A model generated the notes under the pieces. The model made no database searches and was not told the DNA's origin. It saw only the letters and a program-made list of their open reading frames with translations. Both the position numbers and the translations under genes were made by a program. From contig NZ_JHBV01000042.1 of assembly GCF_000724545.1 (NCBI RefSeq), positions 62,001-126,000 on the forward strand: a stretch of DNA of 64,000 bases. Reading direction: 5' to 3'. Position 1 is the first letter of the stretch. Each line of letters begins with the position of its first letter. Shown here one piece after another: positions 2,368 to 19,358 of the stretch. The DNA is from Aureispira sp. CCB-QB1 (GTDB lineage: Bacteria; Bacteroidota; Bacteroidia; Chitinophagales; Saprospiraceae).

Positions 2368-2376
2368 AATGAAAGA

Positions 2377-5177: not shown

Positions 5178-5187
5178 ACTGCTGTGC

Positions 5188-6459
5188 CTAATTTTTTAAC
5201 ACGTCCAACAAGCCAGAAAAGATACGCTCCAAAAGTGTGAATTCCTTGGTTTGTATGGCAATATGAGCATTCATTTTTTGTTGTTTAGGGATGGAGACCC
5301 CATAGTTGGTAACCCAACTTTGCGGAAGTTTTAGCAAGACTTCATACTGATTATCGGTTGGGATAGGAGCAATTTCAACAACTTCTGCTGTTAATATCCC
5401 ATATTCAGCAGAGGGGTAATTATTAAAAGAAACAGTAGCCTTTTGACCAACAGCAACTTTACCAATGCCATTGGCATCCATTAGTGCTTTTAAAAATGCT
5501 TGTTTTTGTGCTGTATTGGGCAAGATTGTTAGCACAGGAATGTCGGGAGATATTTGATTTCCTTCTAATGTTATAGAATTAAACTCTAATACACCAGCAA
5601 TAGGAGCATAGAGAATATGTTCTTTTTTCCATTTCCCTATAGCTGTTTTGAGTACTTCGTATTTTTTTGAACGTTCGGTTATCAATTTAAAAAAGAAGTC
5701 ATGCTTTTGTTTTTCAGATTCAGGAATTTGCAGGCTTAATTGTTGGATTTTTATTTGATTAGAAATAAGTGTAGATTCCATTTGATGAAAAGAACGTTTG
5801 CTCTGCCAATAAACATTTTCTTTTTGCTCAAACTCTTGTGGACTAATAACGCCATCTTGTAGTAATATTTTGGAGCGTTCCCAATCTTTTCGGATGTTAT
5901 TTAGCTCTTTTTCGAACACTTCTTTTTGTTTTAATAAGGAGGCATTAAGTGCTTTGTTTTGTTCAATCTCCTTTTTTATAGTTCTTATACGATCAGGTGT
6001 AATATCTGTTGTGTAGGCATCTTTAATTTGTTGTTCTAACAGGACTAGCTCTTGGTATGCTGTATTGAGTGTACCTAAGTTGCTTGCTAATAGATATTTA
6101 GTGTTAATAGGGGTGTTTTTGTTTTTTAATAAAGTGTCTAATGTTAATACGGCTTCCCAAGCAGCAGATGATTCAAAAATAATTAAAGGAGTATTACATT
6201 CAATGGTATCTTTTTCTTGGACTAAAAGTGTGTTGATGGTTTTTGTCTGTTTGGCGAAAACCTCAACTGGTGGACGGTTGATATAAGTCGTAGCTTTTGC
6301 TTGTAAGACATCAGGGTAGCTGATTACGGCTGCAATTCCTAGGACAATACTTAAAAAAAGTGAAAGAACAGTAATCCCCCAATAGGTCAACCATCCTAGA
6401 GGGTTGCCCATCGCTTGCTCTACCAATGTGAATTCCGTAGTTGGTGTGTTATCTGGCAT
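5188..6459 (-). CDS. HlyD-family adaptor of graspetide cluster 1
   Basis: 423 residues. One membrane helix lies near 27-48 (GITVLSLFLSIVLGIAAVI). It is followed by a lipoyl half, a coiled coil at about 140-260, a second lipoyl half (ILYAPIAGVLEF) and a beta-barrel C-terminus. It is the periplasmic adaptor for the C39-peptidase exporter encoded 12 bases upstream, and the last gene of cluster 1. The final 125 codons (5188-5564) are almost identical at DNA level to the same part of the cluster 2 adaptor (5 differences in 377 bases by eye), while the N-terminal two thirds have diverged. This patchy identity points to recent gene conversion. Confidence 0.9.
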   Translation of the reverse strand: MPDNTPTTEFTLVEQAMGNPLGWLTYWGITVLSLFLSIVLGIAAVISYPDVLQAKATTYINRPPVEVFAKQTKTINTLLVQEKDTIECNTPLIIFESSAAWEAVLTLDTLLKNKNTPINTKYLLASNLGTLNTAYQELVLLEQQIKDAYTTDITPDRIRTIKKEIEQNKALNASLLKQKEVFEKELNNIRKDWERSKILLQDGVISPQEFEQKENVYWQSKRSFHQMESTLISNQIKIQQLSLQIPESEKQKHDFFFKLITERSKKYEVLKTAIGKWKKEHILYAPIAGVLEFNSITLEGNQISPDIPVLTILPNTAQKQAFLKALMDANGIGKVAVGQKATVSFNNYPSAEYGILTAEVVEIAPIPTDNQYEVLLKLPQSWVTNYGVSIPKQQKMNAHIAIQTKEFTLLERIFSGLLDVLKN

Positions 6460-6471
6460 TTTATATGTTTT

Positions 6472-8676
6472 TTAATTGGCACCTACTTGTTCCACATCCA
6501 ATTGGTTTTGGACAAGTTGATAATATTTTCCTTTTTGGTTTAATAATGTTTGGTGCGTACCCTGCTCTACAATTTTGCCATTATCCAAGACAATGATTTG
6601 ATCCGCATTCATGACGGTGCTTAGTCGATGTGCTACTACAATAACCGTTTTGGAAGCTAAAAATTGGTTTAGTTTTTCCACAATTTCTCGTTCGTTTGTA
6701 GCATCCAAAGCGTTGGTTGCTTCGTCTAAAAACAATACATCAGGATTTTTATAGACCGCCCTAGCGATAAGAATACGCTGTTTTTGCCCCTGTGATATGC
6801 CACTCCCTTTAGAGCCAATCATTGTATTGTATCCTAACGGAAGCGTAGCAATCAAGTCGCTAATATTGGCAATTTCAATCGCTTGATGTAATTTTTTATA
6901 ATCAATAGAGGTATCGCTTTCGGCAATATTTTGAGCAATGGTATCTGAAAAAATATACCCATCTTGCATTACAGTGCCACAAAGGCTTCGCCAATAGCGT
7001 TTGTCAATAGAGGATAAGGGTGTTTTTGCAACTGATATTTTTCCGTTGATAGGTTCGTAAAATCCTAGTAATAATTTTAGCAAAGTAGTTTTGCCGCTAC
7101 CACTAGCACCAACAATAGCCGTTGTTTTGCCAGCAGGAATAGTTAAGTTTAATTCTTTTAAAACAGGAGAAGCAATAGGCGTATAACTAAAAGACAATTT
7201 TTCTAACTTTAAATCGAATGTTTTGGGCAGTTGTTGTATAGAATGGACTGTTGTTGTATTTTCATCTTTTTCAGCGGTGATTTCATTCATACGTTCCAAG
7301 CTGATTTTGGCATCTTGAGCAGCATAGACAAAGCTTATAAACTGTTGGAAAGGAGTGTTTAATTGCCCCACAATATATTGAACAGCAACCATCATTCCCA
7401 ACGTCATTTCGCCATTAATAACAGCTGATGCAGCAATAAAAGAGATCAATATATCCTTGAGTCTAGAGAAGAGTAGTACTCCAAATTCTTGATATTGTCG
7501 CAAGGCCAATGATTTGGTTTGAACACTGAACAATTTGGCTTGTATCTCTACCCATTGCCAACGTCGTTTTCGCTCACTTCCTTGCAACTTAATTTCTTGA
7601 ACACCATTGATAATTTCATACAATGCTTGTTGATTATCTGAAGCTTGTTGAAACGCCATATAATCTAGCTCTTTGCGCCATTTTAAAAAGCCCCATACCC
7701 AAAGCAAATAAAGAATAGAGAAAAATAAAAAAACAACAAAAATAAGGCTGTTGTATAACAGTAGAATACTTGAAAATACAAAAACAGTAACTATTGAGAA
7801 GAGCATATTGAGTACTGATCCTGTCAAAAAAGATTCTACTCTATGGTTGTCACTAATTCGTTGGTACAAGTCCCCTACATTTTTAGCATCAAAAAAACCT
7901 AAGGGCAAGCGCATCATCTTAGCTAAAAAATCAGCAATCAAATTGACATTTACTCGACGCCCGATATTAAGTACAATCCAAGATTGGATAAAACGAACAA
8001 AAACTTGACTAATGGACAAGACTAGTTGAGCAATTAAGACCAACGAAACAAAGCTAATGTTTTGATTATTGACACCAATATCAATTAATGACTGAGTAAG
8101 AAAAGGGAACATCAATTGAAAAACCAAGCCAGTCATCATTCCCAAGATAAACTGAAAAATTAACCGCTTATATGGTTTGATATATCCGATCAAATACTTC
8201 CAATTAGAAGTATTCTGCATTTCTACATTTTCTGCATAGAAAGCAGGTGTTGTTTCTAAACCCAAAACAATACCCTTTTTATTTTTATTCAACCAACCCT
8301 TTTCGAAGAAGGAGCGCTTTAGTTTTAATTTTCCCTCGGCTGGATCCGAAACCCAAATATGTGTTTTAGTGATTTTGTAGACAACAACAAAGTGTTTTTG
8401 TTGCCAGTAAGCAATGCAAGGTAGCGGAAACTGCATTAAACCAAGTGTGTCTTTTTCTTTTGCATAATGGAGTTGTACAGCAATGGTGCGATAGCCAATA
8501 TTTTCTGCTGCTTCGGCAATACCTAACATAGATACCCCCTCTCTAGTAATGTAACTCTGTTCTCTTAAGTATTGTAAAGGTACCGATTTGCCATGCCATT
8601 GTGCAATCATTTTGAGGCAGGTTGGTCCACAGTCCATGGCATCTAGCTGTTTGTAAAATGGGAATTTTAGAGGCAT
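6472..8676 (-). CDS. C39-peptidase-containing ABC exporter of cluster 1
   Basis: 734 residues. An N-terminal C39 peptidase domain (about 1-130) carries the full catalytic set: Cys16 in DAMDCGPTC, His95 in QKHFVVV and Asp111 in VSDPAEG. Six membrane helices follow at about 160-440, then an ABC ATPase domain with Walker A GASGSGKTTLL, signature ISQGQKQR, Walker B VLFLDEATNALD and switch VAHRLS. Such proteins cut the leader of a peptide after a Gly-Gly site and export the core. The likely substrate is the precursor at 12005-12232, whose leader ends in MGG. The gene lies between gwsS and HlyD. A 438-base patch of the ATPase domain (6703-7140) differs by one base from the cluster 2 exporter. Confidence 0.95.
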   Translation of the reverse strand: MPLKFPFYKQLDAMDCGPTCLKMIAQWHGKSVPLQYLREQSYITREGVSMLGIAEAAENIGYRTIAVQLHYAKEKDTLGLMQFPLPCIAYWQQKHFVVVYKITKTHIWVSDPAEGKLKLKRSFFEKGWLNKNKKGIVLGLETTPAFYAENVEMQNTSNWKYLIGYIKPYKRLIFQFILGMMTGLVFQLMFPFLTQSLIDIGVNNQNISFVSLVLIAQLVLSISQVFVRFIQSWIVLNIGRRVNVNLIADFLAKMMRLPLGFFDAKNVGDLYQRISDNHRVESFLTGSVLNMLFSIVTVFVFSSILLLYNSLIFVVFLFFSILYLLWVWGFLKWRKELDYMAFQQASDNQQALYEIINGVQEIKLQGSERKRRWQWVEIQAKLFSVQTKSLALRQYQEFGVLLFSRLKDILISFIAASAVINGEMTLGMMVAVQYIVGQLNTPFQQFISFVYAAQDAKISLERMNEITAEKDENTTTVHSIQQLPKTFDLKLEKLSFSYTPIASPVLKELNLTIPAGKTTAIVGASGSGKTTLLKLLLGFYEPINGKISVAKTPLSSIDKRYWRSLCGTVMQDGYIFSDTIAQNIAESDTSIDYKKLHQAIEIANISDLIATLPLGYNTMIGSKGSGISQGQKQRILIARAVYKNPDVLFLDEATNALDATNEREIVEKLNQFLASKTVIVVAHRLSTVMNADQIIVLDNGKIVEQGTHQTLLNQKGKYYQLVQNQLDVEQVGAN

Positions 8677-8697
8677 AATTGGGAAAATAAGATTGGG

Positions 8698-9732
8698 TTA
8701 GAGTATCGATTGAAGTTGATAGTATTCGATGGCTTTTTCTTTTAGAGGATTGGTGCTCCATTCCTCCCATTCACAAGTTTCGGGATTATAGCCACATTTT
8801 AAGGGAGCAGCGTATAAATCATCTGGGTTTTCTAAATAAGCTCGACAATCTGTGCATATATGCCGAAACTCACAGGTCTTACATTTATCAATGTCATCTT
8901 TTTTTATGTCCCACATTTTAGTAAATGCTGGGTTTTTAATGACTTCTTCTAAGGTCGTATTGCTAATGTGTCCAAAGGATTGTTGCATCGAGGGGCAGTT
9001 TTTGATGTTGCCATCTGTGTCGATAGATATTTTCCGATTAAGACAGGTGTTGTGGTGTTGGGATTCTGTGAAAACAGAAATGTGTGGTTCAAAATAAAAG
9101 TAATGTACTGCTCCACAATGACCTTGATCGGTTATAACCTGATTAGTATGTTTGACAAACTGGTGCTCTTCTTTTTTAGGGGTAAATTCTAATGGAACGC
9201 TGTGTATAAAAAACCAACGAAATCTTAGATTATTAGCTCGTAACATTTCTAATTTTTTATATGGAAAATGAGTTTCGTAAGGAAGATATACATCTATAGA
9301 TTCTATAGTAGAGTTCTTACTTACTTCACTAATAGAATACAATAATAAAAAATCAAGAACGTCATAAAATCTGATTTCAAGATGAGGACAATTTATCTCT
9401 TTTAGCTGATGAAGAATATTTTTAAAGTTATATGTAGATGTTTCATTATAATCTAAAATAGCATTTGAAATATGATATGGAACATCGAAGTCAAGTGGAA
9501 TCTCAATCATAAAGTTTTTGTCACTTGAATCTATCTCTAAAACAACATCTAAAAGCTCCAGTTTTTGCAATAAATCTACACTTAGTTTACTTAGTTCTGA
9601 ATAATCCTTTTTATACTCAAGAAAGGCTGCAAGTTCTAGTGGGATAAACCAAAATTCTTGGTGCTGAAAATCAGATATACAAGCTCTTTGAAGTCCTTTA
9701 GTTATCTTACAATTAGTGGCTAGTATTTTCAT
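8698..9732 (-). CDS. gwsS: Grasp-with-spasm SPASM-domain peptide maturase, cluster 1
   Basis: 344 residues. The C-terminal 110 residues form a SPASM domain: Cys at CLNRKISIDTDGNIKNC, then CKTCEFRHICTDC and later CGYNPETC. SPASM domains bind auxiliary iron-sulfur clusters in peptide-modifying enzymes. The N-terminal 220 residues show no CxxxCxxC radical-SAM motif, as seen in members of the grasp-with-spasm family, so the chemistry is unclear. The start at 9732 overlaps the end of the small ORF upstream by 20 bases. The context (precursor, ATP-grasp ligase, C39 exporter) supports the family assignment. The role is probably in maturing or binding the precursor for the ATP-grasp ligase. Confidence 0.8.
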   Translation of the reverse strand: MKILATNCKITKGLQRACISDFQHQEFWFIPLELAAFLEYKKDYSELSKLSVDLLQKLELLDVVLEIDSSDKNFMIEIPLDFDVPYHISNAILDYNETSTYNFKNILHQLKEINCPHLEIRFYDVLDFLLLYSISEVSKNSTIESIDVYLPYETHFPYKKLEMLRANNLRFRWFFIHSVPLEFTPKKEEHQFVKHTNQVITDQGHCGAVHYFYFEPHISVFTESQHHNTCLNRKISIDTDGNIKNCPSMQQSFGHISNTTLEEVIKNPAFTKMWDIKKDDIDKCKTCEFRHICTDCRAYLENPDDLYAAPLKCGYNPETCEWEEWSTNPLKEKAIEYYQLQSIL

Positions 9733-9964
9733 CTGTAATTATTTGATTTGGATTTAATATTTTAGAAATATTTTTTTTAGGAACATAAATTTCCTTGCCT
9801 ATGTAATTGTATCTTTGTATTCTTATAGGAGAAATAATTGTAGATTTATGATTTATGTTATCCCTTTTTATATCAAGTGTTTTTGAAAAATAAATATCAG
9901 CAGGGAGTATTGTAGTCTCCAGTTTATTTGCTTTTAATAGCCTCTCTAGTTTGATGTTTTTCAT
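9713..9964 (-). CDS. Small protein between gwsG and gwsS, cluster 1
   Basis: 83 residues, basic and without a signal peptide or membrane segment. It lies 10 bases after gwsG and overlaps gwsS by 20 bases, so it is clearly part of the operon. The C-terminal half (PIRIQRYNYIGKEIYVPKKN) is rich in Arg, Tyr and Lys. It matches no family I know. Cluster 2 has a 64-residue ORF in exactly the same slot (17112-17306) with little visible sequence similarity. It could be an accessory of the maturation complex, a second modification substrate or a recognition adaptor. Confidence 0.6.
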   Translation of the reverse strand: MKNIKLERLLKANKLETTILPADIYFSKTLDIKRDNINHKSTIISPIRIQRYNYIGKEIYVPKKNISKILNPNQIITDENTSH

Positions 9965-9974
9965 TGTAAAAGTT

Positions 9975-10949
9975 CTAATTTATTAATGCTAAAGCAATTT
10001 GTTTTTCAATTTTATAATTATTGATATTTGATAAATAACCGAATTGCCCTATTGGATTTACTTCTAAGAAGTGAAATTTTTTATCTAGCCCATAAATAAG
10101 ATCAATAGAACCTGTGTCGAGCTTTGCTTTTTTCATAAATGCAGAAACTTTTTTCCCAACATCTAGAGGGAGCTGAAAAGGAATCATCCGATTCATTCGT
10201 TCTCTATCATAACATCTATAGTCTACTTGAGTCTTTTTATTTTTTTGAGAAAAAATTGCAAAGCAATATAGTTTTTCCTTTAAATAAAAAACTCTAATCT
10301 CATATTGCTTATTTATTTTTTCTTGAAAGATTGTTAAACCAAATTTAGTTGGTAAACCTTCTATATCTGCTTTTGTAATAATAGCAGTATATTCAAAAAA
10401 ACGTTTTGCATTTCTGGTGTCTTGATACATAAAATTAAGATCCAAACTCTTTGTTATAATCTCATCATGTTCATTGCAGAATGAAAGGGCTTTTTCTTTT
10501 GAATCTGTAAAAATTGTATGGGGTATGTCTAGACCTACTTTTTTAGCAAGGTTAAGCGCTAGCATTTTGTTGTACCTGCCAACTCCATTTTGACCAATAG
10601 TATTTTTCTCAAACAAAAAATGCGTAATAGCTTCTAAATGTGAAATTGAATGTGCGGATAAAAAATACTGTAGACTTGTTTTAAAATTTTCATATTGCCC
10701 AGGATGCTTTACATAGTCTTTTATTCGTATTATTCCCCCACGACAAAACACGGCTTCAATATTTGACAAAGCAAACACTCCATAATTTTTGCTCTCAAAT
10801 AGAACCTCACCTTTATTATAGTCTATATCTTTTATATTAATCCAATCCCGCTCTTTATGAAATACAATTACTTCCTTACCTAAATAATCTAACCATCGTA
10901 TTACTCCACGGGTAGATACGTCTTGTTCATGTGTTAGTATAAGTACCAT
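9975..10949 (-). CDS. gwsG: ATP-grasp peptide ligase of graspetide cluster 1
   Basis: 324 residues with an ATP-grasp fold typical of graspetide ligases. There is a central linker GRYNKMLALNLAKKVGLDIP, an ATP-lysine strand EIITKSL, FQEKINKQYEIRVFYL (acidic and Arg contacts), and the metal/ATP site GSIDLIYGL...FHFLEVNPIGQF with Asp, Glu and Asn. Enzymes of this family use ATP to join side-chain carboxylates of Asp or Glu to Ser/Thr hydroxyls or Lys amines, making lactone or lactam macrocycles. The acidic, Ser/Thr-rich precursor at 12005-12232 fits as substrate. Its ATG overlaps the TAA of the upstream gene (TAATG), so the two are coupled. Confidence 0.88.
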   Translation of the reverse strand: MVLILTHEQDVSTRGVIRWLDYLGKEVIVFHKERDWINIKDIDYNKGEVLFESKNYGVFALSNIEAVFCRGGIIRIKDYVKHPGQYENFKTSLQYFLSAHSISHLEAITHFLFEKNTIGQNGVGRYNKMLALNLAKKVGLDIPHTIFTDSKEKALSFCNEHDEIITKSLDLNFMYQDTRNAKRFFEYTAIITKADIEGLPTKFGLTIFQEKINKQYEIRVFYLKEKLYCFAIFSQKNKKTQVDYRCYDRERMNRMIPFQLPLDVGKKVSAFMKKAKLDTGSIDLIYGLDKKFHFLEVNPIGQFGYLSNINNYKIEKQIALALIN

Positions 10950-11914
10950 TATTTATTTTTTTTCAAAAAAGAATATTTCTCAATGAATTCTTCGTTTACC
11001 CATGGAAGTAATTCATGAGTCCTTATACGAAATCTTGATCCATCAAAAAAAAGACTAATTCCTAACTCTAATCTTCGTTTGATGACTTCATCATAATCTT
11101 CCTCTGTGCATTTTTTCTTTGTATAGAGTAAACTCAGATAACATGGATTATCATTTTTATCTTCAATATATTTCCAATAGAACCGATCAAGCATATATCC
11201 GTAATAAAAGGGCATTAGGTTTCCATTTTTTACTTCTGATAACAAGATATCTAATGAAGAAATAAAACGTTTTTTATCAAAGTGAACAAGTATGATTGTT
11301 ACCAAATCACTTCCTATTAAATTAGAACCAGGAAAACCATATTCTTTGGTTATGGCTAATAATTTTTCTTGTATAATTGAATCCTCTAGATCTATACGCT
11401 CTTTGCATTCTTTGGTAAAACCACTTTTTCTACATTCTTCCCGAATAGCTTGATCTCTTTTGAGTAATTCATCAACTTGTTTTTGTATATTAAGATATAC
11501 TTGTTGGTTTGATTTTTTTGAAGGGTCATCTTCTATTGTTCTTAATTCTTTAATAAAGGCTTTCATATCATTAGAAGAGTTAAAAATTGATTTAAAGTCT
11601 TTTTGCTCTTTCTCCTTTTCTAAATACCAAGAGCAAAAAGAAACATTTGCTTCAGAGCTCTTTTTTAACCAACAAAGAGCTTTCTTTTTTTTGTTTAAAA
11701 AAACGTAAGCCTTTGCTAATAAGTAGGCATCTTTCCACATTGGTTCCTCTAAGCAAAAAGCTTTTTTATACAGGATTTTAGCATTTTTATACTCTTTTTT
11801 GTACATCCAATATTCTGCTTCATTGACTAAATTGTGGTAAGAAATATAATCTTGTGCAAAAAGATTATTCAATAAAATCAGTAAAATAGATAGTATCCAA
11901 TATGTTTTTTTCAT
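10949..11914 (-). CDS. Secreted helical-repeat protein of graspetide cluster 1
   Basis: 321 residues. A signal peptide (WILSILLILLNNLFAQ) is followed by two TPR-like helix pairs at about 30-95 (AEYWMYKKEYKNAKILYKKAF, AYVFLNKKKKALCWLKKS). The rest is helical and charged, with no family I can name (residues 130-320). It is the first gene of the cluster 1 maturation operon, 90 bases after the precursor stop and just past its terminator, and it overlaps gwsG by one base. Cluster 2 has no counterpart. Being periplasmic or secreted, it is more likely to act after export (folding, immunity or binding of the mature peptide) than in cytoplasmic maturation. Confidence 0.75.
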   Translation of the reverse strand: MKKTYWILSILLILLNNLFAQDYISYHNLVNEAEYWMYKKEYKNAKILYKKAFCLEEPMWKDAYLLAKAYVFLNKKKKALCWLKKSSEANVSFCSWYLEKEKEQKDFKSIFNSSNDMKAFIKELRTIEDDPSKKSNQQVYLNIQKQVDELLKRDQAIREECRKSGFTKECKERIDLEDSIIQEKLLAITKEYGFPGSNLIGSDLVTIILVHFDKKRFISSLDILLSEVKNGNLMPFYYGYMLDRFYWKYIEDKNDNPCYLSLLYTKKKCTEEDYDEVIKRRLELGISLFFDGSRFRIRTHELLPWVNEEFIEKYSFLKKNK

Positions 11915-11950
11915 TACTTATTCTTGATTTAATGGTCATGACATTTTTTT

Positions 11951-11986
11951 AGAAAAACACCTAGATTGCAAAATGCAATCTAGGTG
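11951..11986 (-). terminator. Terminator after the cluster 1 precursor
   Basis: A perfect 13-bp stem CACCTAGATTGCA/TGCAATCTAGGTG (11958-11970 and 11974-11986) with a 3-base loop is followed on the minus strand by GTTTTTC. It lies 18 bases after the precursor stop. Partial read-through would make the precursor message more abundant than that of the enzymes downstream. Confidence 0.85.
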
Positions 11987-12004
11987 GGTAGATAAATTCC
12001 CTGT

Positions 12005-12232
12005 TTAATTTCCAGGCTCTAGACCTGTTGGCGTAGAATCTGCACAATCAAACTCTTGATCTCTAAATCTCCCTCCATCATCTTCTACAGTAACAGCAAT
12101 AGAGTCAGAACAAGTATTACTGCCTTCTTCATAAGTACAGACATCTTCAATTTGTTTCCCTCCCATTATGTTTTTAAGGTTGTTGACTTTGAATGCTTCA
12201 AATTGACCGAATTTACTTTCTTGAATTTTCAT
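12005..12232 (-). CDS. Graspetide precursor peptide, cluster 1 (double-glycine leader)
   Basis: 75 residues. The leader (1-25) ends in NIMGG, a double-glycine site for a C39 peptidase, with the FxxxKVNNLKNIMGG pattern usual in Bacteroidota natural-product precursors. The predicted core (26-75) is acidic and rich in Thr/Ser, with Cys32, Cys41 and Cys63, and ends GLEPGN. Many Asp/Glu plus Ser/Thr are what an ATP-grasp ligase needs to form ester or amide links. The three Cys are unusual for this class and could form a disulfide or be modified separately. Its own promoter and terminator lie on either side. The matching enzymes are encoded directly downstream on the same strand. Confidence 0.85.
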   Translation of the reverse strand: MKIQESKFGQFEAFKVNNLKNIMGGKQIEDVCTYEEGSNTCSDSIAVTVEDDGGRFRDQEFDCADSTPTGLEPGN

Positions 12233-12571
12233 AATTAAAATAAAATTTAAAAAAATTTGAGTTATCCCACTTTCCGTAAGTGAGTTGAACGCCTGTGGGG
12301 TTTAATTTTGTATGATCAGGACAAAATGGGGTACAGGTATCCCTTATCTATAACTGACAGTAATAGGCAGAGTAATAGATTAAAAACTATTCTGGGCATT
12401 GCTTACAGAATGCCTTTTAACTATGCGGGTAAAATCTATTTGTAATTGTAGAGTAGCATTTAGGAATAAAAAGGATTTAGTTGATTAAATTGGATTTAGT
12501 TTTAATTTTGCAGACTAAGGGGATGTACAAAATGTAGATCATGAATTAGGAAAAATAGTAGGGGGCTGCTT

Positions 12572-12603
12572 CAAATGTAGAATATAAAATTTATAAATGC
12601 AAA
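12572..12603 (-). promoter_or_regulatory. Promoter of the cluster 1 precursor
   Basis: Read on the minus strand this is TTTG (12603-12600), 20 bases, then TACATTTG (12579-12572), an exact match to the Bacteroidota sigma consensus TTTG-N19/20-TAnnTTTG. Transcription would start near 12565, which leaves an unusually long leader of about 330 bases before the precursor ATG. Weak hairpins lie in that leader (for example GGCATT/AATGCC at 12395-12414). I see no gene in 12233-12888. Confidence 0.65.
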
Positions 12604-12724
12604 TAGTTTTACATTGTTTTAACTTGTTTTACATTGTGTTACGTTTGGATACATTTTGTTTTAAAATTTATTTTGAGAGCATTAAATAATGCAAAAAGTT
12701 ATAAAAGGAAAAATGCATTTGGTC

Positions 12725-12787
12725 TAACGAAGGGAACAGTAGAGCAAACGAAAGTAACATTCGAGTTAACGAAGAAAAAGGAGTAAA
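12725..12787. repeat. Three 21-bp-spaced AACGAA repeats
   Basis: AACGAA occurs at 12726, 12747 and 12768, exactly 21 bases apart (two DNA helix turns). The first two units share the wider form AACGAARgnAACA. They lie about 120 bases upstream of the -33 element of the cluster 1 precursor promoter and 100 bases past the end of the cluster 2 adaptor gene. A regulator binding one face of the helix is the simplest reading; this is inference. Confidence 0.45.
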
Positions 12788-12888
12788 AAAGTACAGAAAG
12801 GTGTTTTTTAAAGAATAGAAAAAGTCTTTGGTAGAAGAAAAAATTAAAGTTTTAGAAGAAAAAATATTAACAATTTTTAACACTAAAT

Positions 12889-14154
12889 CTAATTTTTTAA
12901 CACGTCCAACAAGCCAGAAAAGATACGCTCCAAAAGTGTGAATTCCTTGGTTTGTATGGCAATATGAGCATTCATTTTTTGTTGTTTAGGGATGGAGACC
13001 CCATAGTTGGTAACCCAACTTTGCGGAAGTTTTAGCAAGACTTCATACTGATTATCGGTTGGGATAGGGGCAATTTCAATGACCTCTGCTGTTAATATCC
13101 CATATTCAGCAGAGGGGTAATTATTAAAAGAAATAGTAGCCTTTTGACCAACAGCAACTTTACCAATGCCATTGGCATCCATTAGTGCTTTTAAAAATGC
13201 TTGTTTTTGTGCTGTATTGGGCAAGATTGTTAGCACAGGAATGTCGGGAGATATTTGATTTCCTTTTTGAAGTTTGTGCTTCATCGAGACAATTCCAAAG
13301 GAAGGAGCATAAAGAATGTATTTTTTCTTCCAGTGCTCTACCGCAGTTTTAAGTACTTCCTTTTTTTGTTGAAAATCAACTTCTAAGCGAAAGAAAAAGT
13401 CGTGTTGTTGTTTTTTATATTCAGGGATTTGAATTTCTAATTGTTGTATTTTTATTTTATTGGTAATAATAGAAGATTCCATTTGGTGGAATGTACGCTC
13501 ATTTTGTAGATAAGTATTCTCTTTTTGTTCAAATTCTTGAAGACTAATGACACCATCTTGCAAGAGTTTCTTAGACCGATCCAAATCTTTTTTTATATTC
13601 TTTAATTCTTGTGCAAACACTTCCTTTTGTGCGACCAAAGAATTGTTCAATATGTTGTTTTGTTCGATTTCTTTTTGAAGCGTAGAGATGCGTTGATTGG
13701 TAATATCGTTTTGGCGAGCATCCTCTAATTGTTTAAATAATAAAGCAGCTTCATGGTAAGTAGAGCTCAAATCCCCCAACTCTTTTGACATAAACGTGGT
13801 ATCAAAAATAGATCTATTGGTTTGTAGAAGTGTATCTAAATGCAAAACAGCTAGCCAGTCAGCAGTTGATTCAAGAACAAGGATAGGAGTATTGTGTCGA
13901 ATGGTATCCTTATTTTGAACCAATAAAGTGTGTATTCTACCATTAGTTTGTGTGAATATCTCAATAGGAGGATGATCAATATAAGTAGTAGCTTCTGATT
14001 TTAAGACATCAGGATATTTTATCATGGCAGCAATACCAAAAATAACACAAAAGAAGAGTGCAACCACTGTAATACCCCAATGAGTTAACCAGGAGGGAGG
14101 GTTTCCCATCGCTTGCTCTATTAATGTAAATTCAGTGGATTTTTGATCTGACAT
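12889..14154 (-). CDS. HlyD-family adaptor of graspetide cluster 2
   Basis: 421 residues with the same layout as the cluster 1 adaptor: one membrane helix at about 26-47 (ITVVALFFCVIFGIAAMI), two lipoyl halves around a coiled coil at about 140-260, and a C-terminal beta-barrel. It starts 2 bases after the stop of the C39 exporter and ends the cluster 2 operon. The last 125 codons (12889-13265) are nearly identical to 5188-5564, whereas the N-terminal part is a clearly diverged paralogue. No TolC is encoded in this operon; the nearest is at 3753-5177. Confidence 0.9.
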   Translation of the reverse strand: MSDQKSTEFTLIEQAMGNPPSWLTHWGITVVALFFCVIFGIAAMIKYPDVLKSEATTYIDHPPIEIFTQTNGRIHTLLVQNKDTIRHNTPILVLESTADWLAVLHLDTLLQTNRSIFDTTFMSKELGDLSSTYHEAALLFKQLEDARQNDITNQRISTLQKEIEQNNILNNSLVAQKEVFAQELKNIKKDLDRSKKLLQDGVISLQEFEQKENTYLQNERTFHQMESSIITNKIKIQQLEIQIPEYKKQQHDFFFRLEVDFQQKKEVLKTAVEHWKKKYILYAPSFGIVSMKHKLQKGNQISPDIPVLTILPNTAQKQAFLKALMDANGIGKVAVGQKATISFNNYPSAEYGILTAEVIEIAPIPTDNQYEVLLKLPQSWVTNYGVSIPKQQKMNAHIAIQTKEFTLLERIFSGLLDVLKN

Positions 14155-14156
14155 GT

Positions 14157-16367
14157 TTATTCTATATTTACTCCAACTTGTTCGACATCAAGTTGGTTTT
14201 GAACCAATCTATAATATTTTCCTTTTTGGTTTAAGAGGGTTTGATGGGTTCCCTGCTCAACAATTTTTCCTCCATCCAAGACGACGATTTGGTCTGCATT
14301 CATGACGGTACTTAGTCGATGCGCTACAACAACAACGGTTTTGGAGGTTAAAAACTGGTTTAAATTTTCTACAATTTGACGTTCATTGGAAGTATCCAAA
14401 GCGTTGGTTGCTTCGTCTAAAAACAATACATCAGGATTTTTATAGACCGCCCTAGCAATAAGAATACGCTGTTTTTGCCCCTGTGATATGCCACTCCCTT
14501 TAGAGCCAATCATTGTATTGTATCCTAACGGAAGCGTAGCAATCAAGTCGCTAATATTGGCAATTTCAATCGCTTGATGTAATTTTTTATAATCAATAGA
14601 GGTATCGCTTTCGGCAATATTTTGAGCAATGGTATCTGAAAAAATATACCCATCTTGCATTACAGTGCCACAAAGGCTTCGCCAATAGCGTTTGTCAATA
14701 GAGGATAAGGGTGTTTTTGCAACTGATATTTTTCCGTTGATAGGTTCGTAAAATCCTAGTAATAATTTTAGCAAAGTAGTTTTGCCGCTACCACTAGCAC
14801 CAACAATAGCCGTTGTTTTGCCAGCAGGAATGGTTAAATTGATATTGTTTAGAACAGGTTTGGAGATAGGTGTATAGCCAAAAGATAAATTCTCTAATAC
14901 TAAATCAGCCGATGGAGGAAGCTGTTTAATTAAGGACATGTTGGAAACATTTTCTTCCTTTTCAGAAGTAATTTCCCCCATTCGTTCTAAGCTGATTTTA
15001 GCATCTTGAGCAGTATAGACAAAACTTATAAATTGCTGAAAAGGAGCATTCAGTTGCCCTACAATATATTGAACGGCAACCATCATACCCAAGGTCATTT
15101 CTCCGTTAATGACAGCACTTGCTGCAACAAAAGAAATTAGTATATCCTTGAGTCTTGAAAAAAGTAAAACGCCAAATTCTTGATATTGCCTTAGGGCTAA
15201 GGACTTGGTTTGGACATTAAATAATTTGGCTTGCACTTCTATCCATTTCCAACGTCGTTTTCGCTCACTTCCTTGCAACTTAATTTCTTGAACGCCATTG
15301 ATAATTTCATACAAGGTTTCTTGATTGTTAGAAAACTGCTGAAAAGCCATGTAATCTAATTCTTTGCGCCATTTTAAAAAGCCCCAAATCCAAAGCAGGT
15401 AGAGGATAGAAAAAAAGAAGAAAATAGCAAAAATAACTTTATTATAGACAAATAAAACACCCGAAAAAACAGCAACTGTTACTATAGAAAATAACATGTT
15501 TAGAAGTGAATTGGTCAAAAAGGTTTCTACTCGATGATTGTCGCTGATTCGTTGGTACAAATCACCAATGTTTTTGCTGTCAAAGAAACCTAAAGGCAAT
15601 GCCATCATTTTAGTCAGAAAATCGGCAATTAAATTGACATTTACTCGACGTCCTATATTGAGAGCAATCCAAGATTGGATGAACTGAACAAATACCTGAC
15701 TAACCGATAAAACAAGTTGTGCGATTAAAATCAACCATACAAAACTTATGTTTTGATTGTTAACTCCTACATCTATTAGAGACTGTGTTAAAAAAGGTAG
15801 GGTAAGTTGGAAGATTAATCCAATGGTCATGCCCAATACAAACTGAAAAATCAATCGCTTGTATGGTTTGAGATAACTAAAAAGATACCGCCATTTAGAT
15901 CGGTCTTCTTCTAAATCGTCTTCTTGATAAAAACTAGGAGTTGTTTCGAGCCCCAATACTACCCCTTTTTTTTCGGCAACCAACCAAGAATTTTCAAAGA
16001 CAGAGCGTTTTAATTTTAGCTTTCCTTCTGCTGGATCAGCTATCCAAACATGTGTTTTTGTGATTTTATAAACAACCACAAAATGTCTTTGCCCCCAGTA
16101 AGCAATACAAGGTAAAGGCATTTGTAAGAGCCCAGGAACCGTCCCCTCTTGGTCGTAAGTGAGCTTTAACGCAATGGTACGATAACCAATGCTTTCGGCA
16201 GCTTCCGATATGCCTAGTAGAGATACTCCTTCTCTTGTGATATAACACTTTTCTCTCAAATATTGTAATGGAAACGTTTTTCCATGCCATTGAGTAATCA
16301 TCTTGAGACAGGTCGGGCCGCAGTCCATCGCATCAAGTTGTCTGTAAAATGGAAATTTTAAAGCCAT
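14157..16367 (-). CDS. C39-peptidase-containing ABC exporter of cluster 2
   Basis: 736 residues from the ATG at 16367. An upstream TTG at 16376 in the same frame would add three residues and overlap the preceding gene. The C39 domain has DAMDCGPTC, QRHFVVV and IADPAEG, so the Cys-His-Asp set is complete. Membrane helices lie at about 160-440. The ATPase domain has GASGSGKTTLL, ISQGQKQR and VLFLDEATNALD. It should trim the leader of the cluster 2 precursor (18798-19004) at Gly-Gly and export the core. The 438-base patch 14394-14831 differs by one base from the cluster 1 exporter, while the flanking sequence is much less similar. Confidence 0.95.
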   Translation of the reverse strand: MALKFPFYRQLDAMDCGPTCLKMITQWHGKTFPLQYLREKCYITREGVSLLGISEAAESIGYRTIALKLTYDQEGTVPGLLQMPLPCIAYWGQRHFVVVYKITKTHVWIADPAEGKLKLKRSVFENSWLVAEKKGVVLGLETTPSFYQEDDLEEDRSKWRYLFSYLKPYKRLIFQFVLGMTIGLIFQLTLPFLTQSLIDVGVNNQNISFVWLILIAQLVLSVSQVFVQFIQSWIALNIGRRVNVNLIADFLTKMMALPLGFFDSKNIGDLYQRISDNHRVETFLTNSLLNMLFSIVTVAVFSGVLFVYNKVIFAIFFFFSILYLLWIWGFLKWRKELDYMAFQQFSNNQETLYEIINGVQEIKLQGSERKRRWKWIEVQAKLFNVQTKSLALRQYQEFGVLLFSRLKDILISFVAASAVINGEMTLGMMVAVQYIVGQLNAPFQQFISFVYTAQDAKISLERMGEITSEKEENVSNMSLIKQLPPSADLVLENLSFGYTPISKPVLNNINLTIPAGKTTAIVGASGSGKTTLLKLLLGFYEPINGKISVAKTPLSSIDKRYWRSLCGTVMQDGYIFSDTIAQNIAESDTSIDYKKLHQAIEIANISDLIATLPLGYNTMIGSKGSGISQGQKQRILIARAVYKNPDVLFLDEATNALDTSNERQIVENLNQFLTSKTVVVVAHRLSTVMNADQIVVLDGGKIVEQGTHQTLLNQKGKYYRLVQNQLDVEQVGVNIE

Positions 16368-16372
16368 ACTAA

Positions 16373-17107
16373 TCAATGGTCTAATTCATACAAGCAAGTG
16401 GTATCGTAATGATATTTTCCATCCCTTTGCTGTACTTCTCGTAAATCAAAACAAGTTAATCTAAATGCACAATCTTTGCATCCCTCAATATTAGATTTGG
16501 GAATGTTGAATTGATCGTGATCAATGAATTGCACCTTGTCCTTGTCTAAGAGAAGCGTATCTCTAGAGTAGTGGTACAAATTATTTTTCTGAGAAATAAA
16601 AATAGCGTTAGGACTACCATACAACATTGGTTGGTAGGGGGTATTGTTTGCATTGGAAGACTCTCTATTAAACACTCTATATCTTGCAAAGTACTTATAA
16701 AATTTTTCTAGGGGATAAGCATCCGAAATAAAAATGACAATGCCAAATTGAAAGATATTGTTATTAATCCATGTGACTAGTGTTTGTAGGGAATCTAGGG
16801 CTATTGGATTTTTTTCAGGGCAAAAAATACGCACATTGAAATAAGCTATATCATCGTTGAAATACTGGCTCAGAAAATTAAAATTTTGGCTTTGGGGCAG
16901 TTGTTGAAGCTTGATGTCAAGAATTTCTTTTTGATAGATATCTAGTTGAGGAGGGATATAACGCGCTAAACTAGCCGTTAAATCAGTGTTATCAGCCAAC
17001 TGCTTGAGTTGTGTATTGGCAAGGGTTCTAATCTCTCTAGTTTCTAAATTAATTAAGGCACTTTTAGATTTACCTTTAACGATATAAATGGAATCTTCTG
17101 TTTTCAT
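16373..17107 (-). CDS. gwsS: Grasp-with-spasm SPASM-domain maturase, cluster 2 (short form)
   Basis: 244 residues from the ATG at 17107 (MKTEDSIYIVKG), which sits 4 bases after the previous stop. A longer frame from 17137 would overlap that gene. It is 100 residues shorter than the cluster 1 enzyme. The C-terminus has a reduced SPASM Cys set: CKDCAFRLTC and a final Cys in DTTCLYEL, without the upstream CLNRKI...C pair seen in cluster 1. No CxxxCxxC motif is present. It is assigned mainly by position between the small ORF and the exporter, plus the CxxCxFRxxC motif. It probably acts with the ATP-grasp ligase; its catalytic role is uncertain. Confidence 0.7.
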   Translation of the reverse strand: MKTEDSIYIVKGKSKSALINLETREIRTLANTQLKQLADNTDLTASLARYIPPQLDIYQKEILDIKLQQLPQSQNFNFLSQYFNDDIAYFNVRIFCPEKNPIALDSLQTLVTWINNNIFQFGIVIFISDAYPLEKFYKYFARYRVFNRESSNANNTPYQPMLYGSPNAIFISQKNNLYHYSRDTLLLDKDKVQFIDHDQFNIPKSNIEGCKDCAFRLTCFDLREVQQRDGKYHYDTTCLYELDH

Positions 17108-17111
17108 ATTC

Positions 17112-17306
17112 TTAAGGCAGTAAAGCACGTTCAGCATATTTAATGCATAAAGCTCTGTTGCTAAATTTAGGTGAATAAAATGCTCTTTTGGGTCTCAATT
17201 CGTGGTTGTTTTGAGAATCTTCAAAGTTAATTGCTTTAAACATCAAAGGCAGCTTTCCTTCATTTACTAGATTGGTGTATTTTTCTAAAATTTTTTCTTG
17301 TTTCAT
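17112..17306 (-). CDS. Small protein between gwsG and gwsS, cluster 2
   Basis: 64 residues, no signal or membrane segment. It starts 6 bases after gwsG and stops 4 bases before gwsS, so it is tightly packed in the operon. The sequence has a helical N-terminus (QEKILEKYTNLVNEGKLPLMF) and an Arg/Lys/Ala-rich end (RPKRAFYSPKFSNRALCIKYAERALLP). It holds the same place as the 83-residue ORF of cluster 1. Both contain a short basic stretch with a Pro (RPKRAFYSPKF here, ISPIRIQRYNYIGK there), but clear homology cannot be shown by eye. Function unknown. Confidence 0.6.
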   Translation of the reverse strand: MKQEKILEKYTNLVNEGKLPLMFKAINFEDSQNNHELRPKRAFYSPKFSNRALCIKYAERALLP

Positions 17307-17312
17307 AATTGA

Positions 17313-18341
17313 TTATTGTAAGATGGGAGCTTCCTTTTTTTGTTTGGACTTGGTGAGTAATAATTGAAAAATGCGCTCGTGTATAGGTATGCTCAGGAAC
17401 GAACCGTAGTATTCAACAACTCCATCTTGGTTGATTTCTAAAAAAACATAATTGCCATCAGAACGTTTGATAATATCCATGGTACATAAGTCTAATTTGA
17501 AATAGCGGCACAACTTGATTACCTTATTTTTTACATTCTGATTTAGGTGATATTCTTCGTTGGTGATTTGTTGGTTTCTATAAGCCAACTTAATGTCTGT
17601 GGTAGGGATATCTCCTCCTTTGTAATATTGTTTTACACAATGTAATTCTTCCCCTACCAAAATACACTTAAGTTCATATTTTGATGGAATACGTTCTTGT
17701 ATGAAGGAAGGAAAAATTAAATCTGAGGAGACGTCATTGGTGTCGTTTAAATCAATAGAAGTTGTCTTGATGCTCATAATCTCTTCTTCCTCTGGAAGGT
17801 ATCCTAAACCACCTATTGGTTTGGTAATGGTTGCATCGTGCTGGGAAATAAATTGATTGATGTCTTGTATAGAATTAGACAATAACATGGAGGGACATGT
17901 TAATCCAAATGCGTTTGCTTTGATTGTTTGAAAGGGCTTGTTTTTGCAGGCAGGGTCATAATCGTTAACAATGGGAATTTCTATATTTCGAGCAAAGTTT
18001 AGAATTAAATCCCTTAAGTCATAGACTTCTTTAATCAATTGTTGTAAAGTATAATTGGGAACAATGCCTTTGTAACTGTTGAACAATCTACCTGTTGAAA
18101 GAAAATTGTTGCTAATACGTCGTTTCCAGATCAAAGAAAATTCGCTTAGGTGATGAACTTGTTGGTTGACCTTAAATAAAAGATCGTTTTCTCCAATAGT
18201 TACTTGTATATCATTAATCCCATTGGGTAACAAATCTTCGAGATTGATTCGAACAACTTCAATGCCATGTTGAATACAATACAATTGTGTTTTTTCAATG
18301 AGTGTTTCCGAAAAATGAGTACTTAAAAATAAAAATTTCAA
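17313..18341 (-). CDS. gwsG: ATP-grasp peptide ligase of graspetide cluster 2
   Basis: 342 residues, ATP-grasp fold of the graspetide ligase type. It has a nucleotide-binding strand ATITKPIGG, FIQERIPSKYELKCILV, and the metal/ATP site LDLCTMDIIKRSDGNYVFLEINQDG. Where the cluster 1 enzyme has YEIRVFY, this one has YELKCIL, replacing a conserved Arg by Lys. It should form ester or amide crosslinks between Asp carboxylates and Ser or other side chains of the repeat precursor at 18798-19004. It is first in a five-gene operon and is preceded by its own promoter rather than being fused to the precursor message. Confidence 0.85.
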   Translation of the reverse strand: MKFLFLSTHFSETLIEKTQLYCIQHGIEVVRINLEDLLPNGINDIQVTIGENDLLFKVNQQVHHLSEFSLIWKRRISNNFLSTGRLFNSYKGIVPNYTLQQLIKEVYDLRDLILNFARNIEIPIVNDYDPACKNKPFQTIKANAFGLTCPSMLLSNSIQDINQFISQHDATITKPIGGLGYLPEEEEIMSIKTTSIDLNDTNDVSSDLIFPSFIQERIPSKYELKCILVGEELHCVKQYYKGGDIPTTDIKLAYRNQQITNEEYHLNQNVKNKVIKLCRYFKLDLCTMDIIKRSDGNYVFLEINQDGVVEYYGSFLSIPIHERIFQLLLTKSKQKKEAPILQ

Positions 18342-18605
18342 ACTAATGCTTTTGAATATAAAAAAAATAAATATATGGTCTATATGTAAAAAAGAAATGT
18401 GCTAGTTATGGTCTAGCTTTAGCTAATTAATAATTTTGAAGCCAAGTAAATACTTGCTTTCGGCAATTGATTTATAGTAAAAGCGAATCTTGAGCATCTC
18501 TACTGTCATGATGGAAAAGGCTAAGAAGTATTCTTGGTGCCAAGAGAAATCAGATCACAAAAATTATTTAGGTTTGTATGTGATTTTATGTGTTAACTTT
18601 TTGGT

Positions 18606-18636
18606 CAAAGGTAGACTCATTGTAACCAACTAGCAA
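18606..18636 (-). promoter_or_regulatory. Promoter of the cluster 2 maturation operon
   Basis: On the minus strand: TTG (18636-18634), 20 bases, TACCTTTG (18613-18606). This matches the Bacteroidota promoter form. Transcription would begin near 18600, giving a leader of about 260 bases before gwsG. The region 18342-18797 holds no gene that I can see. Confidence 0.5.
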
Positions 18637-18725
18637 GTACCAATTGACAGGTGTGCAGGTTGAACTAGCAAGCGTGTCAAATAAATGGATTGTTGTGCAT
18701 GGTGATTAAGAGTAGTTATTATTAA

Positions 18726-18763
18726 AACTTGAGGCAGATGAAACATAAAAACTACCTCAAGTT
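18726..18763 (-). terminator. Hairpin after the cluster 2 precursor
   Basis: A 12-bp inverted repeat with one mismatch (AACTTGAGGCAG at 18726-18737 and CTACCTCAAGTT at 18752-18763) lies 34 bases after the precursor stop. The minus-strand tail is TTTAATAAT, only moderately T-rich. As in cluster 1, it separates the precursor from the enzyme operon. Confidence 0.65.
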
Positions 18764-18797
18764 ATTCGGTTCTTTTAGGTTTTAAAAAAGCCTGCGA

Positions 18798-19004
18798 TTA
18801 ACCATTGTCAGAGTGATCAGAACTTCCATTGTCTGCATAGTCCGAATTTCCGTTGTCGTGATGATCTGAATTCCCATTGTCGTGATGATCCGAATCACCG
18901 TTGTCGTAAGAGTCAGAAGCGAATTTCATGTTTCCTCCAGTAATTGCGTTCATTTGATCTGATTTGATAACTTCAGCATTTTTGAACAAATCTACTTTTT
19001 TCAT
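18798..19004 (-). CDS. Graspetide precursor peptide, cluster 2, with octapeptide repeats
   Basis: 68 residues from the ATG at 19004; an in-frame ATG at 19055 would add 17 residues but gives an atypical leader. The leader is MKKVDLFKNAEVIKSDQMN plus AITGG, with the double-glycine cut after residue 24. The core of 44 residues has five repeats of SDxxDNGx (SDSYDNGD, SDHHDNGN twice, SDYADNGS, SDHSDNG), so each repeat offers two Asp and one Ser. The regular acidic and hydroxyl residues suit an ATP-grasp ligase making one ring per repeat. His, Asp and Asn richness also suggests metal binding. It belongs with the enzymes at 12889-18341. Confidence 0.88.
   Translation of the reverse strand: MKKVDLFKNAEVIKSDQMNAITGGNMKFASDSYDNGDSDHHDNGNSDHHDNGNSDYADNGSSDHSDNG
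18801..18917 (-). repeat. 24-bp tandem repeats in the precursor core
   Basis: Five 24-base units with wobble differences encode the SDxxDNGx octapeptides. The units around 18841-18890 are nearly identical at DNA level (CCGTTGTCGTGATGATC-type), so repeat number could change by slippage. Confidence 0.8.
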
Positions 19005-19069
19005 TGTAATAAGTTTTTGTAAGATAAATGAATTAGAAATCCGTAAAGATTTCATGAATTAAATTGGAA

Positions 19070-19101
19070 CAAAGTTATAGTCCTGTGATTTTGGATTCAA
19101 A
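19070..19101 (-). promoter_or_regulatory. Promoter of the cluster 2 precursor
   Basis: On the minus strand: TTTG (19101-19098), 20 bases, TAACTTTG (19077-19070), a full Bacteroidota consensus with the same 20-base spacing as the cluster 1 precursor promoter. The start would be near 19063, leaving about 60 bases of leader. The rest of 19102-19358 shows nothing recognisable. Confidence 0.75.
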
Positions 19102-19358
19102 CCTAAAAAAGAGAGCTTTTAAGATTGTCAGTATGTATTAGTGTGTTATACTATGTTCGTATTTAGTTTATTAGTAATTTGTTTTTAGATATGTTTAAAG
19201 CCGTTTAGTAATCAAATGGACTCATGGAGCTTTATTCCTCATTTTCAATTCAACAGTAAATAATGTATCTTATGCTTTTTTATAAGATTGTATAAGTATT
19301 TTTTTGATGAGAAGAAGTAAACGCATCAATTTATATTACTTTTTAAGTACAAAATTAA

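Follow-up and report, generated by a model that had tools for sequence, protein, structure and literature searches.

What does a bacterium gain from two neighbouring peptide gene clusters with the same gene order and quite different precursors, and how did the two come to lie side by side? The question is raised by a locus of Aureispira sp. CCB-QB1, in a window of 64,000 nucleotides (positions 62,001 to 126,000, forward strand, of contig NZ_JHBV01000042.1, assembly GCF_000724545.1), where two clusters for ribosomally synthesized and post-translationally modified peptides (RiPPs), here called A and B, are adjacent on the minus strand. Each encodes a precursor, an ATP-grasp ligase, a small protein, a SPASM protein, a C39 peptidase/ABC exporter and an HlyD adaptor. 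We compared them across nine genomes of the genus, among them the window's own genome (G000, a draft of 184 contigs) and a strain of the same species (G322). The reading that we favour, with about even confidence in it as a whole, is that A and B are two independent graspetide cassettes in one island, that their SPASM protein is a partner without radical chemistry, and that the front cassettes can be exchanged.

A grasp-with-spasm locus and a divergent relative

The initial annotation, made from the sequence alone, had described two grasp-with-spasm clusters running from ligase through a small open reading frame (ORF), a SPASM maturase and a C39 exporter to HlyD, one with an acidic three-Cys precursor and the other with five Ser-Asp repeats. 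All the genes it named are present on the minus strand in that order, and both precursor cores are as described; what it overlooked is a TPR-like protein in A. There are indeed two RiPP clusters with ATP-grasp ligase, SPASM protein, C39 exporter and different cores, presumably for two products. The family name and the profile placement hold for A and, strictly taken, fail for B. Ligase A reaches 238.5 bits with TIGR04192 (cut-off 230) and SPASM protein A 279.9 bits with TIGR04193 (cut-off 175); the latter also matches PF13186 (27.7 bits, cut-off 21.5) and has the full cysteine pattern CX2CX5CX2C. By its sequence, A is an ordinary grasp-with-spasm locus; the small ORF that immediately precedes its SPASM gene lacks the strict LPL motif of the family. 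The leader of precursor A is nearly the same as that of the precursor G322_X. A resemblance of the TPR-like protein to DUF6624 and cluster 23 was considered and dropped, Pfam giving no such match.

B is a divergent relative only, since its ligase (87.3 bits) and its SPASM protein (20.2 bits, over residues 209-250 only) miss the TIGR04192 and TIGR04193 cut-offs. SPASM-like protein B has no Pfam match at E<=1, PF13186 included, and does not carry the full cysteine pattern. Ligase B, a putative graspetide type, is matched by TIGR04184 (E 3.5e-25) and TIGR04192 (E 1.2e-24), both below the curated cut-offs, and reaches 22.1 bits with RimK PF08443 (cut-off 21). The small ORF directly upstream of its SPASM gene does show the LPL motif, an assignment by motif alone; in our own scan a strict LPL motif occurred in 12 of 33 loci, in one of them (L029) by way of a spurious-looking ORF. 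Both exporters match PF03412 (117.6 bits for A and 114.6 for B, cut-off 22) and have ABC domains, and both precursor leaders end in GG. TIGR04192 finds ligases at six places in the genome, i. e. A, B and four others.

Eight-residue Ser-Asp repeats in precursor B

The core of precursor B consists of the units SDSYDNGD, SDHHDNGN, SDHHDNGN, SDYADNGS and SDHSDNG, which Tandem Repeats Finder (TRF) reads as 3.8 copies of a 24-bp period, and the score for S..D at period eight was matched by 0 of 20000 shuffles of the core. The genus search returned four B precursors in three of the nine genomes (G000, G322 and G003). Among the 17 eight-residue units of the window precursor and the two G003 precursors, Ser1 and Asp5 are invariant (17/17), Gly7 is found in 16/17, and positions 2, 3, 4, 6 and 8 vary. 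The G322 precursor keeps Ser1 and Asp5 in all five units (22/22 across the four precursors); where it departs from that of the window, the changes are at positions 2 and 8 of the units and immediately ahead of the repeats. Asp stands at position 2 in part of the units only, no His is constant (positions 3 and 4 vary), the precursor has no Cys and its units have no Lys. Because Ser1 is the sole constant donor and Asp5 the sole constant carboxylate, one Ser-Asp ester per unit is predicted: ligase B would make one Ser1-Asp5 omega-ester in each repeat with five losses of 18 Da, and the 44-residue core would change from a computed 4736.71 Da in the linear form to 4646.66 Da with five rings.

Ligase B retains K174, Q215, E223, D249, D289, E302, N304 and G307, of which K174, D289, E302 and N304 are ATP-grasp residues, and its ORF is intact in G003. 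Of 298 genomes sampled from the order, 34 contain a match to it at E<=0.001, with 20-31% identity except for the B gene itself (G003 is not listed there); at E<=1e-20 the only match in 395 sampled genomes of the phylum is in its own genome. Within the genus, TIGR04192 detects B ligases in 3/9 genomes, the same three that have the precursors. Close relatives of ligase B thus appear to be confined to this genus in the sampled genomes. At another locus (L065), a Cys-free, Ser/Asp/Tyr-rich precursor-like ORF (GGSISYDDSLQNDSSTSYDTSNYVDHSNDHDS) lies upstream of a ligase gene (2568-3542, minus strand) and is perhaps parallel to B; the SPASM protein of that locus has lost CX2CX5C.

A SPASM protein that is probably not a radical enzyme

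That the SPASM protein acts as a maturase in the sense of a radical S-adenosylmethionine (rSAM) enzyme, as had been annotated, is doubtful. The rSAM motif CX3CX2C occurs in 0/34 relatives of the protein (A and B included) as against 15/15 rSAM/SPASM controls, and GGE in one of the 34 as against 14 of the 15. The 34 distinct rows, collected by profile and phmmer, comprise the 32 of alignment A1, all of which match TIGR04193 at E<=0.001, together with SPASM-like protein B and its relative in G003; the count omits fragmentary and duplicate sequences from a set of 42 ORFs, and these 42 lack CX3CX2C as well. The controls (loci L067-L081, n=15) are weak partial-profile matches from the TIGR04193 search; CX3CX2C was seen in 10/12 of them when read from the first start codon and in 12/12 when read from stop to stop, and the remaining three of the 15, unmatched by phmmer, were also positive. 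As to the SPASM cysteines, 21 of the 34 have CX2CX5CX2C, eight have CX2CX5C only (B and its G003 relative included) and five have neither; in these five, the C-terminal 150 residues contain 0 to 3 Cys, and their genes still lie downstream of a ligase.

The structural model of SPASM protein A (pLDDT 85.2, pTM 0.82) begins with strands followed by helices (residues 8-60), perhaps a winged-helix leader-binding domain of the PqqD-like (RRE) kind, continues with an alpha/beta part and ends with SPASM. In VIA-align its best matches were rSAM-SPASM enzymes, with Z scores of 13.0 for PqqE (217 residues, 5.3 A), 12.5 for BtrN, 12.3 for TigE, 12.2 for SuiB, 12.0 for anSME and 11.6 for CteB; the TigE alignment covers model residues 1-315 and that of CteB residues 6-315. 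The models thus suggest a protein that is folded like a radical enzyme but lacks its radical centre, and we conclude from the motif losses that the SPASM protein is probably not an rSAM enzyme. A search of PDB chains with the sequence profile of the SPASM proteins returned five chains at E<=10, the best being a designed barrel (0.002). Three of the 32 A1 relatives are also matched by the pseudo-rSAM profile TIGR04150, which we take to correspond to IPR026418. SPASM-like protein B had matches in three of 60 relatives, i. e. its own genome, G003 (54%) and G008 (weak, 40 residues), and its one named relative in the genome contigs is a grasp-with-spasm protein of Chryseobacterium, over 29 residues. 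The authors of TIGR04193 may well be aware that the family lacks the rSAM motif; in PMC8939145 the protein is treated as a radical SAM enzyme.

Since the SPASM protein is found beside the ligase, since CX2CX5C has been lost in some relatives and since a partner-dependent graspetide ligase is known (PMC13097080), the protein is most likely a leader-binding docking partner of the ligase that acts together with the LPL protein. A link between Cys in the substrate and Cys in the SPASM protein was considered and not upheld; the scan included plainly spurious ORFs, and many loci were short of upstream DNA.

The island and the relationship of A and B

The genes tolC and ppk2, which flank the two clusters, are direct neighbours in G001, G002 and G003, where their matches lie about 146, 69 and 245 bases apart; in G000 and G322 the A+B block comes between them. 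In G006, another grasp-with-spasm cluster, oriented as A, lies beside tolC, and ppk2 was not found there; tolC and/or ppk2 were not found at the thresholds used in G004, G005 and G007. Cluster B of G003 (L041) lies away from tolC-ppk2. The stretch 5178-19358 can be regarded as an island that holds two independent cassettes, each before its own C39-ABC/HlyD exporter.

The annotation had also supposed that an ancestral duplication gave rise to both clusters, an idea which the tree tests reject. In the ligase tree (45 rows), A pairs with G322_X and B, on a long branch, with G003_B; forcing A, G322_X, B and G003_B together cost 15.5 log units (AU test, p=0.0076). For the exporters (9 rows), forcing A and B together cost 26.6 units (p=0.0102), and the first 480 residues gave p=1.3e-4. 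The degree of similarity changes along the clusters: A and B are 83.8% identical in the ABC protein and 69.4% in HlyD, 24.0% in the ligase and 24.1% in the SPASM protein, and the small ORFs (25.9%, Z 0.5 against shuffles) cannot be aligned above shuffles. Near-identical tracts in both exporter genes (Table 1) point to gene conversion, to which part of the high exporter similarity would be due.

Different cassettes at a second site

A second site differs between the two strains. In the window's own genome, positions 3587-9958 of contig C140 match G322 (L050 9590-16001) at 96.7%, a stretch that takes in the exporter, HlyD and some 2.5 kb of flanking DNA. Its upstream end (3587) lies inside the SPASM gene, and ligase, LPL protein and precursor are different. 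On the other flank, carried by contig C165 of that genome, C165 1059-2764 corresponds to L050 3093-4798 at 99.3% and C165 2755-2916 to L050 6220-6381 at 97.5%, after which a different precursor starts. In G322, a gene for a DDE transposase lies between flank and cassette, and the cassette is of the A type, which is thus present at two sites of that genome. When six SPASM proteins from the genus are compared pairwise, similarity is greater in the SPASM part than in the N-terminal part for 15/15 pairs.

A conserved leader element directly precedes precursor A and is common to A, G322_X, C165, C167 and C139, where it stands before different precursors and before cassettes with different genes. 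It is found at four places in G000, at two in G322 and in none of the seven other genomes of the genus, and was not seen before precursor B. Of its predicted hairpins, the CCUGU..ACAGG pairs are kept in 5/5 copies and two pairs show compensatory changes. Rfam gave no match at E<=0.1 in 5000-20000, the window copy of the leader included, and folding of the A leader alone was not notable (z -0.87). The element might act as a regulatory leader RNA or mark an end used in recombination.

Three observations concern related loci. The C140 cassette encodes a protein of 392 residues (L015 418-1596) between precursor and ligase, at the place of the TPR-like protein of A. On contig C167 (L016 502-1840), the SPASM gene is split over two frames and the exporter ORF is short, as in a decaying copy or a draft-assembly error; no exact overlap of >=15 bases joins the contig ends of C167 and C140. 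Contig C30 carries a further grasp-with-spasm locus (L017 4804-11803) with several small paralogous precursors that have LLGQVLGDCHD in common.

A model for the two clusters and its alternatives

From what the sequences display, i. e. gene content, motif losses, synteny, trees, conversion tracts and the strain difference at the second site, the following course can be proposed. The ATP-grasp ligase would bind the precursor and join Ser/Thr to Asp/Glu side chains, presumably as esters; in B, a Ser1-to-Asp5 omega-ester in each repeat would yield five small rings in a chain. As a degenerate rSAM relative, the SPASM protein would dock to the ligase together with the LPL protein. During export the C39 domain would cut after GG, and the neighbouring TolC might serve as the outer channel. 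One exchangeable cassette, moving presumably by recombination, would comprise the precursor, the ligase, the LPL protein and the N-terminal portion of the SPASM protein; its ends would be the leader element (none before B) and the SPASM/exporter block. The product is probably a secreted peptide with antagonistic or inhibitory activity. It is tempting to go further and to see in all this a polymorphic peptide system, in which a fixed exporter/SPASM-domain end takes up front cassettes by recombination between the leader element and the joint in the SPASM gene. The SPASM protein would then be the inactive scaffold of a radical-SAM enzyme, linking cassette-specific leader recognition to common export, and B would represent a graspetide type of its own, with SxxxD rings in a chain; this fuller picture is tentative, and we would rather doubt than affirm it in all its parts.

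Several results weigh against the favoured reading. Not only do ligase B and SPASM protein B miss the family cut-offs, ligase B also has Lys at positions 225 and 251, where 43/43 and 38/43 other ligases have Arg, and position 251 presumably lies in the 'DxR' core-binding motif; the chemistry of B may therefore differ. The full CX2CX5CX2C pattern in 21/34 relatives suggests that iron-sulfur clusters still matter in most of them. The structural comparison barely probed the N-terminal part of the A model, and the B model is weak (pLDDT 73.6, pTM 0.62), its top scores (Z 7.7 with CteB and 6.5 with SuiB) being below the safe level of the tool; Foldseek found no match to either SPASM model in the PDB at E<=0.001, and no match to the PqqD family PF05402 was found in the genome at E<=0.001. 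The bootstrap of the ligase tree had not settled, and the B branch is long. As for cassette exchange, C165 and C140 are joined solely by the mapping of both to G322, and the step between the SPASM and N-terminal parts may partly be ordinary constraint.

Could the SPASM protein nevertheless act in catalysis, as a redox maturase whose auxiliary iron-sulfur clusters serve, for instance, to form Cys thioethers? The cysteine pattern kept in 21 of the 34 relatives and the three Cys of precursor A would fit, and thioether formation is proposed for this branch in PMC8939145. However, CX3CX2C is absent from all 34, five relatives without CX2CX5C are nonetheless downstream of a ligase, precursor B is free of Cys, and loci with the full SPASM pattern have Cys-free precursor-like ORFs (none with Cys at L025 and L027, three of four without at L036), so that we think this unlikely. 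Less likely still is that product B is an uncyclised, secreted Asp/His repeat peptide that binds calcium or another metal, with the ligase inactive or otherwise employed. Asp-rich repeats with His, the two Arg-to-Lys changes and the reduced SPASM protein B speak for it, but His is inconstant, whereas Ser1 and Asp5 are invariant, and ligase B keeps its ATP-grasp residues and an intact ORF in G003.

If esters are formed, they might also run from Asp5 to Ser1 of the next unit, since with a period of eight the spacing is four residues on either side. The first Ser1 and the last Asp5 would then be left partnerless, and we regard such a connection as improbable, much like the redox maturase. The least credible of the alternatives is a tandem duplication of A and B in place with later divergence. 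The shared gene order, the exporters at 84% (ABC) and 69% (HlyD) identity and their near-identical tracts are what it would predict, and the long B branch with the unsettled bootstrap leaves some doubt about the rejection; yet the AU tests of ligases and exporters go against it, G003 has B without A at another site, and ligase A pairs with a cassette from a different site of the same species.

Comparison with known graspetide systems

Plesiocin-type graspetides differ from B in their spacing and their ligase and are not known to involve a SPASM protein. What they and other multi-repeat graspetides (mentioned in PMC13097080) have in common with B is several repeats per precursor that bear rings, predicted ones in the case of B. 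In PMC13097080, the closest analogue of B in layout would be corallotide from Corallococcus, with five cross-linked repeats and donor and Asp four residues apart (KxxxD in corallotide, SxxxD in B). In contrast to B, corallotide has Lys isopeptide bonds and is hydroxylated by a 2-oxoglutarate oxygenase; the units of B are free of Lys, and no oxygenase family is among the profile matches of cluster B.

Cluster A has closer counterparts. PMC8939145 names TIGR04193 and describes for its branch 5 Bacteroidota loci with a SPASM protein, an LPL-type ORF directly upstream and diverse GG precursors, often with Cys; A is like these TIGR04192/TIGR04193 loci in the points tested except for the strict LPL motif, whereas B falls below both cut-offs and has a SPASM protein of 254 residues and a Cys-free repeat precursor. 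The annotation's remark that no product of either core type is known is accordingly fair for B, while the core type of A belongs to a known group. In PMC13097080, SPASM is mentioned once, for group 14, to which A probably belongs, as judged from its co-occurring SPASM protein. The role proposed for the SPASM protein resembles that of MirC of the rosaritide system (PMC13097080), where a graspetide synthetase needs a partner protein; unlike the SPASM protein, MirC belongs to a cluster associated with a peptidyl-prolyl isomerase, and the likeness is one of role. The pseudo-rSAM proteins of Bacteroidales RiPP loci (IPR026418; PMC10352776) likewise resemble rSAM enzymes, lack the radical motif and belong to RiPP clusters. 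They accompany a true rSAM enzyme, whereas the pseudo-enzyme here accompanies an ATP-grasp ligase, no rSAM enzyme being seen in clusters A and B.

Titles and the beginnings of abstracts listed from open papers, with subscription papers mostly outside, contained neither a graspetide with SxxxD repeats nor an exchange of cassettes at loci of this kind, and the term 'grasp-with-spasm' had no match among the open papers searched. The B peptide of eight-residue Ser-Asp repeats appears to resemble no described product that was found. B offers a simple, testable SxxxD repeat substrate for a type of ligase with close relatives found in one genus only, and it becomes questionable whether the SPASM protein encoded at such loci is a radical enzyme, as has been assumed. 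The second site exemplifies how whole modules for peptide modification can be swapped from strain to strain behind a common exporter; this hints at competition between closely related bacteria and at the way in which such pathways undergo recombination.

Features of the island and its surroundings

Table 1. Features in and around the island (positions in the window, or in the named locus).
Feature	Position	Strand	Remarks
tolC, left flank	3750-5177	+	
HlyD adaptor A	5188-6459	-	
Conversion tracts, 3' end of HlyD A	5188-5564	-	180/181 and 180/180 nucleotides as in B 12889-13265; region overall 74.9%
C39 peptidase/ABC exporter A	6472-8676	-	C39 and ABC domains
Conversion tract, exporter A	6703-7140	-	437/438 nucleotides as in B 14394-14831; gene overall 80.4%
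SPASM protein A	8698-9732	-	TIGR04193; N-terminus predicted as winged-helix-like; barrel lacks the rSAM motif; SPASM cysteine pattern complete
Small ORF A, LPL position	9713-9964	-	ILPADIYF; no strict LPL
ATP-grasp ligase A	9975-10949	-	TIGR04192, above cut-off
TPR-like protein A	10949-11914	-	321 residues; signal-like N-terminus by eye; TPR matches below curated cut-offs
Precursor A	12005-12232	-	75 residues; leader end IMGG; acidic core, 3 Cys, 13 D/E
Conserved leader element	12233-12372	-	directly upstream of precursor A; predicted hairpins
HlyD adaptor B	12889-14154	-	
C39 peptidase/ABC exporter B	14157-16376	-	
SPASM-like protein B	16373-17137	-	254 residues, reduced; CX2CX5C...C alone kept
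LPL-type small protein B	17112-17306	-	KLPLMF
ATP-grasp ligase B	17313-18341	-	divergent; below TIGR04192 cut-off
Precursor B	18798-19004	-	68 residues from internal ATG; longest ORF to 19055; leader end AITGG and 44-residue core
Five S-x3-D-x-G-x repeats, core B	18801-18917	-	
ppk2, right flank	19359-20213	+	
Other copies of the leader element	L050 6230-6374; L110 2765-2909; L016 166-320; L014 4410-4556		

To the left of the island, positions 634-5177 of the window hold a resident type I secretion operon of the ABC-HlyD-TolC kind, which ends directly at the island and the TolC protein of which may serve the peptide exporters.

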